DNA from: Spirochaetia bacterium
GTDB taxonomy: Bacteria > Spirochaetota > Spirochaetia > Sphaerochaetales > Sphaerochaetaceae
DNA: 34,305 nucleotides
NCBI GenBank assembly: GCA_009929055.1
Contig: SABI01000003.1
Coordinates: 1 to 34,305 of the forward strand
Reading direction: 5' to 3'
How positions within the stretch are numbered: position 1 is the first letter of the stretch; each line of letters starts with the position of its first letter. The notes under the pieces are model-generated. The model was not told the DNA's origin and made no database searches. It was given only the letters and a program-made list of their open reading frames with translations. Of the stretch, positions 4,062-18,579 are shown piece by piece. Made by a program: the position numbers and the translations under genes.

Positions 4062-4808
4062 CTACATTGCCCCGATTGGGGGATTTTTTGCGTCAATAGT
4101 GACAGAAAAATCGAATAAATTACCATCATATACTGCATAATTTATTGCAATTGGTTCATCTTGCTCTCCCATCGCAATACTTTTCATCCAAAGATGAGCA
4201 GTATTAAGTCTTGTAGCAAGCAACGCACAGGTCTCATTGTCTGGAATTACTGCAGAAAATGAGCGATGAATTGTCTTGATGGAACAATTAGTTGATTTTT
4301 CATATGTATCAAGGAAAGAACTGTTTCTTAAAAATGATCGGTTTATCTGTTTTGAGAGAGAAGTTGGTAAAAAGATATTCATCACAGCATAAGGGACATT
4401 TCCAACATATCGTACTAAATGTAAACGAGTAATGGTCTCTCCACTATCGAGCGGAACCTTAAACTGAGGGAGCATAGTTTGTACAAGCTCACTCTCCTTA
4501 CTATATTCTGTATCACTAAGTATTTGATTTAATATCTCATTATTAGTTTCAACACCATCTTGGCTAATGAGACCATTATAATACTCATTATATTGTTTTA
4601 CTTGGCAAACAAACGTCCCTTTACCCCTAGACCTACGTATTAATCCTGATTGAACGAGTTCATCAAGTGCTCGTCTTATTGTTATTCTACTTACTTTATA
4701 CTGGCTACATAATTCAAGTTCTGCTGGAATCATGATATTTTCAGGCCAAATACCTGATAATATTTTATTTTGTAATTCCATCAGAACTGCTTGGTATTTA
4801 AGTTGCAT
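4062..4808 (-). CDS. GntR-family transcriptional regulator with UTRA domain
   Basis: N-terminal wHTH (MIPAELELCSQYKVSRITIRRALDELVQSGLIRRSRGKGTFV) followed by a UTRA-like ligand-binding region. Confidence 0.88.
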   Translation of the reverse strand: MQLKYQAVLMELQNKILSGIWPENIMIPAELELCSQYKVSRITIRRALDELVQSGLIRRSRGKGTFVCQVKQYNEYYNGLISQDGVETNNEILNQILSDTEYSKESELVQTMLPQFKVPLDSGETITRLHLVRYVGNVPYAVMNIFLPTSLSKQINRSFLRNSSFLDTYEKSTNCSIKTIHRSFSAVIPDNETCALLATRLNTAHLWMKSIAMGEQDEPIAINYAVYDGNLFDFSVTIDAKNPPIGAM

Positions 4809-4950
4809 CAGGATTATCCCCTATTAGTAGGCTAAATTGATATAAAAAATAGATAAAAACATCTCATTATTTCAAAAATAGAATAATACACATAGCTATT
4901 TTCTAAAACCAAAAGAAAAAAGAAAGGCGTAAAGCAATAAAACATAGGAT

Positions 4951-4989
4951 AAAAAAAACTATGATATAACATATTCTATCATATCATAG
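4951..4989 (-). terminator. Rho-independent terminator of the UxaE-like gene
   Basis: Minus strand: CTATGATAT-N13-ATATCATAG (9-bp perfect stem) followed by a T8 run, just downstream of the stop at 5040. Confidence 0.75.
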
Positions 4990-5039
4990 CAAAATAAGTA
5001 CATAGTTTTTTTAAACTCATTTCAAATTAGTGTAATATA

Positions 5040-9441: not shown

Positions 9442-9510
9442 AACAGGCAATTTTCCCCTACTTTTTTTAGTGTTGAGAATTTATAATTTATTTTGTACTA
9501 TTATAATCAA

Positions 9511-10677
9511 ATGAAATATAAGAAAAAAATATATTGTCTCTTGTTGCTTCTCATCTCTTTAACCCCCTCTCTCTTTGCAGAGTCAATTATGTATGAGCCT
9601 TCTGGGGTAGATCTTAGCAATTATTATGTTGATGAAGCAGATTCTAATAATCCTAACTCTTTTAATAACTCAACTCTTTATACTAATCATTATGGATATA
9701 TGGGAAGGCTTTGGTATAAAGGAGAAGAAACTACTCTTACATGGAATGATTTGTCAGATAGGTCGGGTGGCAATCCAAACAATCGCTTCTATTTCACCAA
9801 TTCCGATGATAATTCGAGATGGAGGGAAGTGTTCTTTGTTACAAGGGTAAGAGGAAAAAAACGGGGCAGTAGTACAATTGAAAATATTAACAGTACCAAT
9901 ACTGTCATAGCCAATTCTGGCAATACGATGACCATCCCAGGAGCAGGTAATGATATTTTAACAGAAAATGGCCCTGGATTTAATTATAACGGAAATAGTG
10001 GAACCTATAATGGGAGTAATCAATATAGTTATAAGTATAAATATGAATATGTGATTATAGAAATTACTATTATAAGAACTTCCAATACCTACAGATTCTC
10101 AACAGGTTGGCGTGATAATTATCAATCATTCGTGAGTGTTACAGGAGGTGGGGTAGATATCAACCTCACTTTTATAGGAATAACTTCAAGGTGGTGGTGG
10201 GTGTTTGGTGGTACTCTTCCTGATCAGTATATGTTTTCTGTTGAACGAACTGTAGGAGAAGTAATCCCATTAGAGACTCTTTTAATAAAGAATGATAAAA
10301 ATAATGCCCTTGATGTAGGGATTCTTAGATATCATTCTTACTTTAATGATAATGGAACTGTCTCTTTTTCTTCTTTAAGTACAAGTGTTAATACTAATTT
10401 CTTCTTTAGTAGAACAGTAGGATCTACGACCTACACATTCCCCTATAAAGTAGCATTTGAATCGACCAAACCATCTAGTACGATTAAAGATATTAATCTT
10501 ACTAATAGTTTTTCCTCTACCTCAGATTCAATTCAATACCCAAACGGGGGTGGTTCAGGAACAATACAAGTTCTTGAAGGAATAATAAAAGTCTTCGTAA
10601 CTAATCCAAATGTAATTGATGGAAAACCCCCGGGGGAATATTCTTCTACTATTTATTGTTTGCTTAGTGTGAATTAA
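9511..10677 (+). CDS. Secreted hypothetical protein
   Basis: MKYKKKIYCLLLLLISLTPSLFAES Sec signal peptide; Asn/Ser/Gly/Thr/Tyr-rich body, no recognised domain. ATG at 9511 preferred over the TTG at 9493. Confidence 0.75.
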   Translation: MKYKKKIYCLLLLLISLTPSLFAESIMYEPSGVDLSNYYVDEADSNNPNSFNNSTLYTNHYGYMGRLWYKGEETTLTWNDLSDRSGGNPNNRFYFTNSDDNSRWREVFFVTRVRGKKRGSSTIENINSTNTVIANSGNTMTIPGAGNDILTENGPGFNYNGNSGTYNGSNQYSYKYKYEYVIIEITIIRTSNTYRFSTGWRDNYQSFVSVTGGGVDINLTFIGITSRWWWVFGGTLPDQYMFSVERTVGEVIPLETLLIKNDKNNALDVGILRYHSYFNDNGTVSFSSLSTSVNTNFFFSRTVGSTTYTFPYKVAFESTKPSSTIKDINLTNSFSSTSDSIQYPNGGGSGTIQVLEGIIKVFVTNPNVIDGKPPGEYSSTIYCLLSVN

Positions 10678-11773: not shown

Positions 11774-12196
11774 TTACTCACACCCCTTTCTACAAAGAGA
11801 GATAGGTAGAGCAGTATTCACTCTCTTCTGTGGATTAATTGCACACTCTATCATGGTGATAATACAGGGCATACTGATAGAGCACATAACCTGTGTTCCA
11901 CTCTTTTTCATATCAATAACTCCAACTTTTTTTAATTGAGCCAAATGCTTTGAAGTAACTGATTTATTTAATCCCAAGTCTGATGCTATTTCACATACGC
12001 ACTTGGGATTTTCCTCAAGGAGAGAAATTATTTGTAATCGAGAAGGATGCCCTACAACACGAAATAGAGAGGCAATAGAAGTTAAGTTCTGGTATGTGAT
12101 TTCATTCATACTCATACTCTTAAACAAAACGGATGCTCTGTCAAGAAGTGAATACAAACATTTTGGGTCAATACATTTTCTCGTGGGATTCTCCAT
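11774..12196 (-). CDS. ArsR-family metalloregulator
   Basis: FRVVGHPSRLQIISLLEENPKCVCEIASDLGLNKSVTSKHLAQLKKVGVI wHTH with a CVC motif; extra Cys near the C-terminus. ATG at 12196 preferred over the TTG at 12265. Confidence 0.85.
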   Translation of the reverse strand: MENPTRKCIDPKCLYSLLDRASVLFKSMSMNEITYQNLTSIASLFRVVGHPSRLQIISLLEENPKCVCEIASDLGLNKSVTSKHLAQLKKVGVIDMKKSGTQVMCSISMPCIITMIECAINPQKRVNTALPISLCRKGCE

Positions 12197-12550
12197 ATTG
12201 AAAAGTAGTAAAATAAAGCTCAATGCAGAATTCTGTGGGATTTGTACTATAGGTATACTCTTCAAAAAGAAGTATTAAGTATTAAGAATCTAGTAAGAAT
12301 TGCTTTTTGCGACCTTAATGATGTTGTTAGTGCTCTTATTTATTTCTGGAAGGGAATGGACCCTTTTTTCAATCTTATGGCTTGCATATGTATGCTTAAA
12401 TTACCAAATATCTCTACTCTCTCTTTAGAATTATTTTGGATTAATCGTCGTCATTAAACACTCATCTTGTCATCAGGTGATGAAACTTTTATAGGATTAA
12501 ACAGGGTGTAATTTTTTATATATATTTTCAAAAAAAGTATTTACAATTTA

Positions 12551-13925: not shown

Positions 13926-16142
13926 ATGTTTAGAAAAAAACAATTGATTCATTTTATCCTTGCTGCGGTGATTTTTATCACCGCAGATATTTGGATATAC
14001 CACACTCTCACTACATCTTTTGATACCTATGTAGAAAAAAGAGATTTCAATGAAATATCCTTATTTGTACAAACAGCACCAAAAGAAATAGAAGAGATAC
14101 CTAGTTGGCTTGAAGAAGTCTCCTCAATCATACCCGGATCGAAAGCCCTCTACCTTGCATTTGACAACAATAGTGGATTTTTCGTCCCCTATGCGAGTTC
14201 TGATGCTAATGTAGAAAAATTTTATAATGAACAAAAGACTAATAGCGATTTTATTACAGCCCTCGATAGCGCCTATTACTTAGAAACAGTAAAACTCCCA
14301 CAAACCTATTCAATTCAATTAGAAAATGAAATGGTAAAAACCCGTATCTTCGCTTCTCCTATTATTGCAGAAAATGGATATGAAGCTACTGGTGCTCTCT
14401 TTATTGTAGTTCCAGTTAGTAGTGCTTCCTCATATTCTCGCCTCATAGGAACTTTTGCACTACTTGCGGCTATAGGATTCTTACTCATTGCATGGGTGGT
14501 AAGTTTCTCTCGTGATCCTATTACAGGATTCATGGTGTTAGGACTTTTTCTTATGGTGGGAGTATTTGTAGCCTACCCTCTTATTGAAGCGCTACGACTT
14601 TCATTTATGAAAAATGGCAGTTTCTCACTTGATACGTGGGCTCTGGCCCTCTCCCCCTCTTATATCGTAGCCCTATGGGGTTCATTAAGGTTAGGAGTTT
14701 CGACGGCAACGGTTTCAACCTTAATAGGATTTATGATTGCATTCTTAGTTGAAAGAACGAGTTTTAAAAACAAAAGAGTTGTTTCAACCCTTGCAACTAT
14801 GCCAGTTATCTCTCCCCCATTCTCACTCTCCCTCTCTATTATTCTATTATTTGGAAATAATGGATTAATTAGCAAACAACTGTTACACCTTCAGCACACT
14901 TCAATCTATGGGTTAGGTGGACTTACTGTTGTCCAAACAATCAGTATGTTCCCCATAGCTTTCCTCACTATTAGTGGAGTCCTTAGACAAATTGACTCAA
15001 CTGTGGAGGATGCTTCCTTAGACTTAAATGCAACTAGATGGCAAACATTTAAATCAATAACACTACCACTGACTATTCCAGGAATACTTTCAGCATGGAT
15101 GCTTGTCTTTACTAACTCCCTAGCTGACTTTGCAAACCCATTATTGCTAAGTGGTAACCTACGGGTTCTTTCTACTGAAGCCTATATGATGGTTACAGGG
15201 AGAATGAACGACCTTGGTGGTGGTGCAGTCCTCTCTTTCTTATTACTCCTTCCTACAGTAAGTGCCTTTATGGTACAGCGGTTCTGGGTAAGTCGAAAGA
15301 GCTTTGTTACCGTTACAGGCAAACCTTCTACGACCCTTACTGAGCTCACTACTGCCCCTGTTAGAAAGACCTTAACAGTTCTTACATGGGCAATTCTTGG
15401 TTTTATTTTAATGCTCTATTTAACAATTATTGCAGGAGCCTTTGTGAAGAACTGGGGAATTGACTACACCTTTACCCTCTCTAACTGGAAAGCTATTCCA
15501 GATAGTTGGGATTCAATCGTCTCTACCCTTACCTTAGCCTTAATATCTGCTCCTTTAGCAGGAATTATTGCAATGGCTGCAGCAATGCTCATAGTAAGAA
15601 AAAAATTCCCAGGCAAAAGATTCTTGGAAGTATTAATGATGACTCCGTATGCAATTCCTGGAACCTTAATAGGTATTGCGTATGTTATTGCATTTAACAA
15701 GCAACCCCTTATCTTAGTAGGAACAGGGGCAATTATCGTGATTAACTATGTAATAAGAGAACTTCCTGTTGGCCTTGAAAATGGAATAACAGCCCTTCAT
15801 CAAATAGACCCTTCAATAGAAGAGGCCGCTCAAGACTTAGGGGCAGATGTCCCAACAGTATTTAGAACAATTGTCTTACCATTAGTAAGACCAGCTTTCT
15901 TAAGTAGTATGACCTATACCTTTGTAAGATCAATGACAGCAGTAAGTGCAATTATCTTCCTCATCTCTGCCAAGTGGTACCATCTTACTATTAAGATACT
16001 TTCATACTCAGAAAATTTACGATTTGGACTTGCCAGTGTCCTTTGTACGATGCTTATCGGTGTCGTCCTTGGAGTATTCGGCCTTATGAACCTCCTCGTA
16101 AAAGATGACAAACTTACCCAAAAGACGATTTCGAGTCGATAA
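13926..16142 (+). CDS. ABC transporter permease with two fused permease domains (Fe3+ type) and an extra N-terminal extracytoplasmic region
   Basis: 738 aa; two EAA-loop-like segments (VEDASLDLNATRWQTFKSITLPLTIPGI and IEEAAQDLGADVPTVFRTIVLPLVRPAF); N-terminal TM, about 130-aa loop, TM. Confidence 0.88.
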   Translation: MFRKKQLIHFILAAVIFITADIWIYHTLTTSFDTYVEKRDFNEISLFVQTAPKEIEEIPSWLEEVSSIIPGSKALYLAFDNNSGFFVPYASSDANVEKFYNEQKTNSDFITALDSAYYLETVKLPQTYSIQLENEMVKTRIFASPIIAENGYEATGALFIVVPVSSASSYSRLIGTFALLAAIGFLLIAWVVSFSRDPITGFMVLGLFLMVGVFVAYPLIEALRLSFMKNGSFSLDTWALALSPSYIVALWGSLRLGVSTATVSTLIGFMIAFLVERTSFKNKRVVSTLATMPVISPPFSLSLSIILLFGNNGLISKQLLHLQHTSIYGLGGLTVVQTISMFPIAFLTISGVLRQIDSTVEDASLDLNATRWQTFKSITLPLTIPGILSAWMLVFTNSLADFANPLLLSGNLRVLSTEAYMMVTGRMNDLGGGAVLSFLLLLPTVSAFMVQRFWVSRKSFVTVTGKPSTTLTELTTAPVRKTLTVLTWAILGFILMLYLTIIAGAFVKNWGIDYTFTLSNWKAIPDSWDSIVSTLTLALISAPLAGIIAMAAAMLIVRKKFPGKRFLEVLMMTPYAIPGTLIGIAYVIAFNKQPLILVGTGAIIVINYVIRELPVGLENGITALHQIDPSIEEAAQDLGADVPTVFRTIVLPLVRPAFLSSMTYTFVRSMTAVSAIIFLISAKWYHLTIKILSYSENLRFGLASVLCTMLIGVVLGVFGLMNLLVKDDKLTQKTISSR

Positions 16143-17484: not shown

Positions 17485-18579
17485 ATGGCAACAGTCCAAT
17501 TAAAAGACATTTGCAAGATTTATGACGGCAATGTTAAAGCGGTTGATACGGTTAATATCGAGATCAAAGATAGAGAATTTGTAGTTCTTGTAGGACCTTC
17601 AGGATGTGGTAAATCTACCACTTTAAGAATGGTTGCTGGACTCGAAGACATCTCAAGTGGGGAATTATACATCGATGGACGATTAGTAAACGATGTTCCA
17701 CCAAAAGATAGAGATATTGCAATGGTATTCCAAAACTATGCTTTATATCCACACATGAGTGTATATGACAACATGGCATTTGGATTAAAGATTAGAAAAT
17801 TCCCAAAAGAAGAAATTGATCAACGTGTAAGAGAAGCTGCAAAGATTCTTGACATTGAACAGCTTCTAGACAGAAAGCCAAAAGCACTTTCTGGTGGACA
17901 GCGACAGAGAGTTGCTGTAGGAAGGGCAATTGTAAGAAAACCAAAAGTCTTCTTATTTGACGAACCTCTTTCTAACCTTGATGCTAAACTTCGTGTTCAA
18001 ATGCGTGCTGAAATTTCTTCACTTCATAATCGTCTCAAAGCGACAATGATTTATGTTACTCACGACCAAGTAGAAGCATTAACCATGGCGGATAAAATTG
18101 TTGTTATGAAACTTGGTATCATTCAACAAATAGGTGGACCATTAGAACTCTACAATGAACCAAACAACAAATTTGTTGCTGGCTTTATTGGGTCTCCTCC
18201 AATGAACTTCTTAGCAGTAGATGTTGTGAAAGAAGGAACAGATATTTTTGTCGATGAAGGAACATTTAGAATTAAACTTAATGCAAAGAACAAAAAACTT
18301 CTCACTTCCTATGTTGGTAAAAAAGTCACATTTGGTGTTAGACCTGAAGACCTTATCTTTAGTGATAATCCAATAGAAGATACTACTATGAATGGGATAG
18401 TAAGTGTGGTAGAACCTCTTGGTTCAGAAACTCATATCTATGTAATGGTAGGCAAACACCAAGTAATTGGTAAAATTGAACCACAAATTCGATTAACTGT
18501 AGAGCAAAAGATTTCTTTAATTCCGGATTTAGAAAAACTCTCATTCTTTGATTATGAAACAGAAATAGTTATTCGCTAA
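17485..18579 (+). CDS. Sugar-type ABC transporter ATPase (MsmX/MsmK/UgpC family)
   Basis: GPSGCGKSTTLRMVAGLEDISSGELYIDGRLVNDVPPKDRDIAMVFQNYALYPHMSVYDNMAFGLK; LSGGQRQRVAVGRAIVRKPKVFLFDEPLSNLDAKLR; TOBE C-terminus. Confidence 0.93.
   Translation: MATVQLKDICKIYDGNVKAVDTVNIEIKDREFVVLVGPSGCGKSTTLRMVAGLEDISSGELYIDGRLVNDVPPKDRDIAMVFQNYALYPHMSVYDNMAFGLKIRKFPKEEIDQRVREAAKILDIEQLLDRKPKALSGGQRQRVAVGRAIVRKPKVFLFDEPLSNLDAKLRVQMRAEISSLHNRLKATMIYVTHDQVEALTMADKIVVMKLGIIQQIGGPLELYNEPNNKFVAGFIGSPPMNFLAVDVVKEGTDIFVDEGTFRIKLNAKNKKLLTSYVGKKVTFGVRPEDLIFSDNPIEDTTMNGIVSVVEPLGSETHIYVMVGKHQVIGKIEPQIRLTVEQKISLIPDLEKLSFFDYETEIVIR

Follow-up and report, generated by a model that had tools for sequence, protein, structure and literature searches.

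A conserved extension of predicted Cache fold on the permease of an ABC importer

Cache-type sensor domains are expected on receptors and kinases, so what is such a fold doing on the membrane channel of an importer? The question is raised by a 738-aa permease encoded in a contig of a Spirochaetia bacterium, analysed here as a single stretch of 34,305 nucleotides (the window). The initial annotation took the protein for an iron-type ABC permease with a Cache-like region fused to its N-terminus. A 2016 survey of Cache domains lists outputs that all belong to signal transduction, except SMP_2 (PMC4822843); neither transporters nor permeases came up in a text search of that survey. The system described below is in most respects an ordinary importer; unexpected is a conserved domain of predicted sensor fold. 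This architecture is absent from the literature searched: neither the open-access papers nor the family libraries that were searched describe a Cache domain fused to an ABC permease. If a Cache-fold domain is wired to an ABC importer, transport would join the outputs of Cache domains, the largest class of extracellular sensors in bacteria.

The importer operon and its probable substrate

Genes for a binding protein, the permease and an ATPase lie head to tail, with intergenic gaps of 21 and 11 bases (Table 1). The permease core matches Pfam BPD_transp_1 in two stretches (4.8e-21), each half has an EAA loop, and the operon supplies both partners that a type I ABC importer needs. The operon is thus a complete type I importer, consisting of a binding protein, a double permease in one chain and an ATPase. 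The nearest homologues come from Sphaerochaetaceae MAGs; one reaches 85% identity along the entire permease. The best NCBIfam match of the permease is PhnU2 (TIGR03262; 261 bits versus a cut-off of 593). Elsewhere in this part of the window are a gene for a 394-aa secreted-type protein rich in Asn and Ser (9493–10677), upstream of the operon a divergent gene (11774–12265) for an ArsR/SmtB-type regulator that contains a PKCVCEIA motif, and a second ATPase gene, of MalK/UgpC type and without a permease of its own, 3′ of the operon (17485–18579). The ArsR gene stands beside the operon in none of 80 relatives' loci and, lacking this conservation, was rejected as a partner of the permease.

Table 1. 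Features of the importer operon and of its permease (window positions; aa numbering of the permease)
Feature	Position	Strand	Evidence
Substrate-binding protein, AfuA/P5PA/PhnS2-like, 351 aa	12849–13904	+	SBP_bac_6, 2.6e-27
Permease with N-terminal Cache-fold module (predicted), 738 aa	13926–16142	+	ORF and translation
First added TM helix, aa 5–29	13938–14012	+	Hydropathy; single helix aa 4–48 in AlphaFold2 model
Extracytoplasmic domain of predicted Cache fold, aa 30–168 (~139 aa)	14013–14429	+	AlphaFold2, Foldseek, Synergistota replicate
Second added TM helix, aa 169–194, into permease core	14430–14507	+	Hydropathy; AlphaFold2 helix 165–194
R-D-P motif at junction, aa 196–198	14511–14519	+	D197 invariant, R196 98%
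Two-half type I ABC permease core, aa 205–738	14538–16139	+	Two BPD_transp_1 stretches
First EAA-type coupling loop, aa 361–387	15006–15086	+	Sequence EDASLDLNATRWQTFKSITLPLTIPGI
Second EAA-type coupling loop, aa 632–658	15819–15899	+	Sequence EEAAQDLGADVPTVFRTIVLPLVRPAF
Operon ATPase, PotA/PhnT2/FbpC type, TOBE_2, 366 aa	16154–17254	+	ABC_tran, 1e-31; neighbouring gene in nearly all homologous loci

The 'iron-type' label is not supported by the binding protein, whose best solved relatives are 8x1a (1e-58), AfuA (4r72, 5.9e-56) and P5PA (6wce, 1e-41), the latter two being the nearest functionally studied ones. AfuA residues H205, D206 and E229, and the phosphate-site residues S148-G149-T150, S184-G185 and Y103, show no variation among 67 binding proteins of this group, that of the window included; AfuA Q269, S37 and T60 are replaced in the window protein. 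Mutating AfuA H205, D206 or E229 abolishes glucose-6-phosphate binding (PMC4546632), and the window protein has all three of these marks of the AfuABC sugar-phosphate importer. P5PA has alanine at the equivalents of D206 and E229 (PMC8427247), which places the window's binding protein nearer the AfuA pattern; it also falls short of the phnS2 NCBIfam equivalog cut-off (210 bits versus 393). Because the sugar-phosphate residues of AfuA are kept, 'iron' is probably wrong and an inherited annotation, a judgement made from these residues and from the nearest relatives. Judged from sequence, the most likely substrate is a sugar phosphate or a comparable organophosphate. Inositol-monophosphatase genes lie beside related operons of Shinella (L137, 5151–6008) and Pantoea (L138, 5277–6077), hinting at phosphorylated sugars or inositols. 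These comparisons suggest that many annotations as 'iron ABC transporter permease' are wrong, across a large group.

A Cache-type fold predicted for the extension

Ahead of the core, hydropathy places a TM helix (aa 5–29), a loop of ~139 aa with no hydrophobic segment, and a second hydrophobic TM segment (aa 169–197), followed by the core helices. This agrees with the arrangement first described, a TM helix, a loop of about 130 aa and a second TM helix before the double-permease core; the residues quoted for it are present and its coordinates are correct. The loop (aa 30–168) contains 9 K+R and 20 D+E, and the added module is acidic outside the membrane and basic inside. Its two extra TM helices preserve the topology of the core, and it ends at about aa 194 (nt 14507), immediately ahead of the R-D-P motif.

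Attempts to detect a Cache domain by sequence alone yielded nothing significant. Searches with the 205 N-terminal residues matched no Pfam family and gave no convincing NCBIfam match, and a profile of 63 orthologues found no solved relative of the extension among PDB sequences. Single orthologues come near Pfam Cache (dCache_1, E 0.03; sCache_3_3, E 0.14), which is a hint only. No Pfam Cache model passes its cut-off for the window protein or for single members, and we therefore call the domain 'Cache-fold' and do not assign it to a Pfam Cache family.

Structure prediction is more informative. An AlphaFold2 model of the extension built on the 63-row orthologue alignment (pLDDT 95, pTM 0.83) begins with a helix (4–48), short helices, two strands (73–80 and 85–91) and two helices (94–103 and 107–117), and ends with three strands (122–132, 135–147 and 154–163) and the TM helix (165–194). 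This succession of long helix, strand-strand-helix-helix, three strands and TM helix is the topology of the Cache superfamily, and the predicted extracytoplasmic position between two TM helices is likewise typical of it. Foldseek returned 33 PDB matches at E ≤ 1e-3, nearly all of them Cache, PAS, LOV or GAF-type folds. The best is WalK in a WalK-YycH model (9a5d, 1.8e-6, TMq 0.68), a full-length match whose TM-score gains from the long flanking helices; the isolated WalK domains that also match score moderately (TMt ~0.6), and further matches are TlpA, KinD, TlpC and McpU. A second model was built from a homologue in Synergistota, which shares 17% identity with the window protein in this domain; it has the same order of elements (pLDDT 91), again with WalK and KinD among the best Foldseek matches. 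The Cache-type fold of the extension is established at the level of prediction. The Cache-like region of the initial annotation is borne out by both independent models, whose matches are mostly Cache/PAS-type sensors; the fold that might have emerged from AlphaFold2 and Foldseek as something other than Cache-like did not. ORF and fold prediction together likewise uphold the fusion of this domain to a transport permease.

Distribution, conservation and origin of the module

Among the 80 best loci in GTDB genomes, every full-length permease carries the module, and this conservation leads us to reject chance or artefact as its source. The sole apparent exception, Marinitoga lauensis (L077), has the module behind a frameshift that separates it from the core (4200–5000), possibly a long-read assembly error; the supposed absence was rejected, the gap being this frameshift. 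A profile of the module matches 46 of 121 Synergistota genomes and 31 of 101 Thermotogota genomes, mostly within frames of ~730–790 aa, and the module is therefore fused to the permease there too. One weak profile match (G044, L112) is spurious and belongs to a GAF/AAA regulator. A whole-protein search was positive in 8 of 41 genomes (the window's own and its relatives). Across a broad Spirochaetota sample the module is almost confined to the window genome, which has one copy, and in each of two other phylum samples it occurs in the starting genome only. The fusion thus recurs in Spirochaetota, Synergistota and Thermotogota. The suggestion that it might be a common extension of all Fe3+ permeases holds in part: it is universal in one orthologous clade that spans three phyla, and absent from sister permeases, so that it is neither a one-off nor shared by all 'Fe3+' permeases.

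Identity to the window copy is 17–69% in the domain and 62–92% in the core, a much faster divergence of the domain. Most of it is poorly conserved, and a handful of residues in the soluble part (W61, Y118, P145, P52 and G156) are invariant or nearly so. The extension might be a passive structural appendage that stabilises or assembles the permease and has no regulatory role. Its weak overall conservation would fit, as would the relatives that function without it and the other homologues in which additional TM helices occupy this end instead. We nonetheless consider this unlikely, as all full-length best orthologues in three phyla have retained the module together with its invariant residues.

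In a tree of the core alone, a single branch (SH-aLRT 100) separates all 31 Cache-bearing permeases from the rest; presence and absence of the module require one change on it, versus 14.3 with shuffled labels. The tree was built by a quick method, and some of its domainless rows have long branches. Domainless permeases annotated as iron ABC transporter permeases (L018, L019 and L021; Haliovirga, Cetobacterium) are 41–47% identical in the core, the sisters of the Cache-bearing clade 44–47%, and lack the TM-Cache-TM module; those of Haliovirga and Cetobacterium lie in the same operon as in the window. The nearest ones, L018, L019 and L021 at about 45–47%, start with a short tail and a D-P motif, followed by the first core helix. 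Since D-P precedes the core in these proteins and follows the module in the others, the cassette is most simply placed once before an existing permease. The module has a single origin, having most simply been added in front of a D-P motif that the core already possessed. Presence and absence of the domain at 45% core identity offer a clean system for testing extracytoplasmic control of importers.

Other additions occur among related permeases. Those of E. coli (AfuB; L110, 2271–4349), Pantoea (L138, 1982–4204) and a spirochaete (L113) have extra N-terminal membrane helices without a soluble domain. In a relative (G022), a different permease of 685 aa (L114, 844–2898) has its own seemingly beta-rich insert of ~150 aa, which sits between the first two membrane helices in a position like that of MalF-P2.

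Role in the importer and comparison with known systems

In the 80 loci, the recurrent neighbours are the binding protein (57), the permease (73) and the ATPase (64); the next true gene occurs in 8. Two gut-treponeme loci (L049 and L052) have the Cache permease without an adjacent binding protein or ATPase, and both have the same secreted-type gene downstream. That only the binding protein and ATPase recur, and that the ArsR gene is not conserved, argues for a role in cis. We think it very improbable that a histidine kinase or chemoreceptor receives a report of transport from the domain or from its helices. Cache domains elsewhere do feed signal transduction outputs (PMC4822843), but across the 80 loci the permease has no recurrent neighbour of the kinase, response regulator or chemoreceptor type, it has no HAMP or output domain, and the divergent ArsR gene (11774–12265) is missing from all relatives. 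It is unlikely that the domain feeds a signalling pathway separate from the importer.

On balance we lean, by analogy, towards a periplasmic Cache-fold module that acts in cis on its own importer by docking the binding protein, gating the channel, or both. The domain would contact the binding protein of the operon and/or pass a periplasmic cue through helix 165–194 to the first core helix, and so adjust docking or opening, in the manner of MalF-P2 in the maltose importer. MalF-P2 contacts MalE and reportedly informs MalK whether substrate is available (PMC3150292; Grote 2009, cited in PMC3328499). As this is the best precedent for the role, we prefer docking or gating in cis; its main rival is true sensing of a ligand. 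A partial mirror-tree comparison gives r 0.33 for the domain with the binding protein and r 0.32 with the ATPase; it does not discriminate, because the first link is no stronger than the second. AfuB and other relatives that transport without a Cache domain count against the proposal, as do the gut-treponeme loci in which no binding protein adjoins the permease and the lack of a significant match to a Pfam Cache model.

A true sensor gate, in which the Cache domain binds its own small ligand (substrate, product, ion or pH) and switches the transporter allosterically, is possible but doubtful. The closest folds are sensory domains, the fast divergence of the domain against the core would fit changing ligands, and the few invariant or near-invariant residues of the soluble part, listed above, also speak for it. 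The domain, however, shows no recognised ligand motif, and its top match, WalK, was modelled with a protein partner, YycH (9a5d). Sensor domains are, moreover, usually dimeric. Since both permease halves share one chain, there should be a single Cache domain per transporter, beside the first half, so that the dimer signalling of kinases and chemoreceptors would be unavailable within a single transporter. That permeases of three phyla are one-chain sensor-transporters, with uptake gated by a periplasmic ligand and no signalling relay, is a reading that we hold tentatively at most.

The permease differs in some respect from each known system that it resembles. The extracytoplasmic Cache domains of WalK, KinD and TlpA share the predicted fold, the long N-terminal helix and a TM segment on both sides; their output goes to a kinase or to chemotaxis, whereas the domain of the window is joined to an ABC permease. 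AfuABC and P5PAB (PMC4546632, PMC8427247) share gene order and the one-chain double permease, and the AfuABC binding protein has H205/D206/E229 and the phosphate-site residues in common with that of the window. E. coli AfuB is 34% identical to the window permease over aa 210–738. Unlike the window permease, it is extended at the N-terminus by additional membrane helices and lacks a soluble domain, and on this ground we rejected the idea that the two extensions are the same. MalF-P2 of MalFGK2 is likewise a folded domain in the periplasm that belongs to one half of the permease and touches the binding protein during the cycle. It is internal to MalF (residues 91–271), whereas the module of the window precedes the core. 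The fold of MalF-P2 differs from the Cache fold. A Cache domain associated with a transport channel is also found in the alpha2delta subunits of voltage-gated calcium channels; alpha2delta is a eukaryotic auxiliary subunit, whereas the Cache-fold domain described here is fused to the permease itself.
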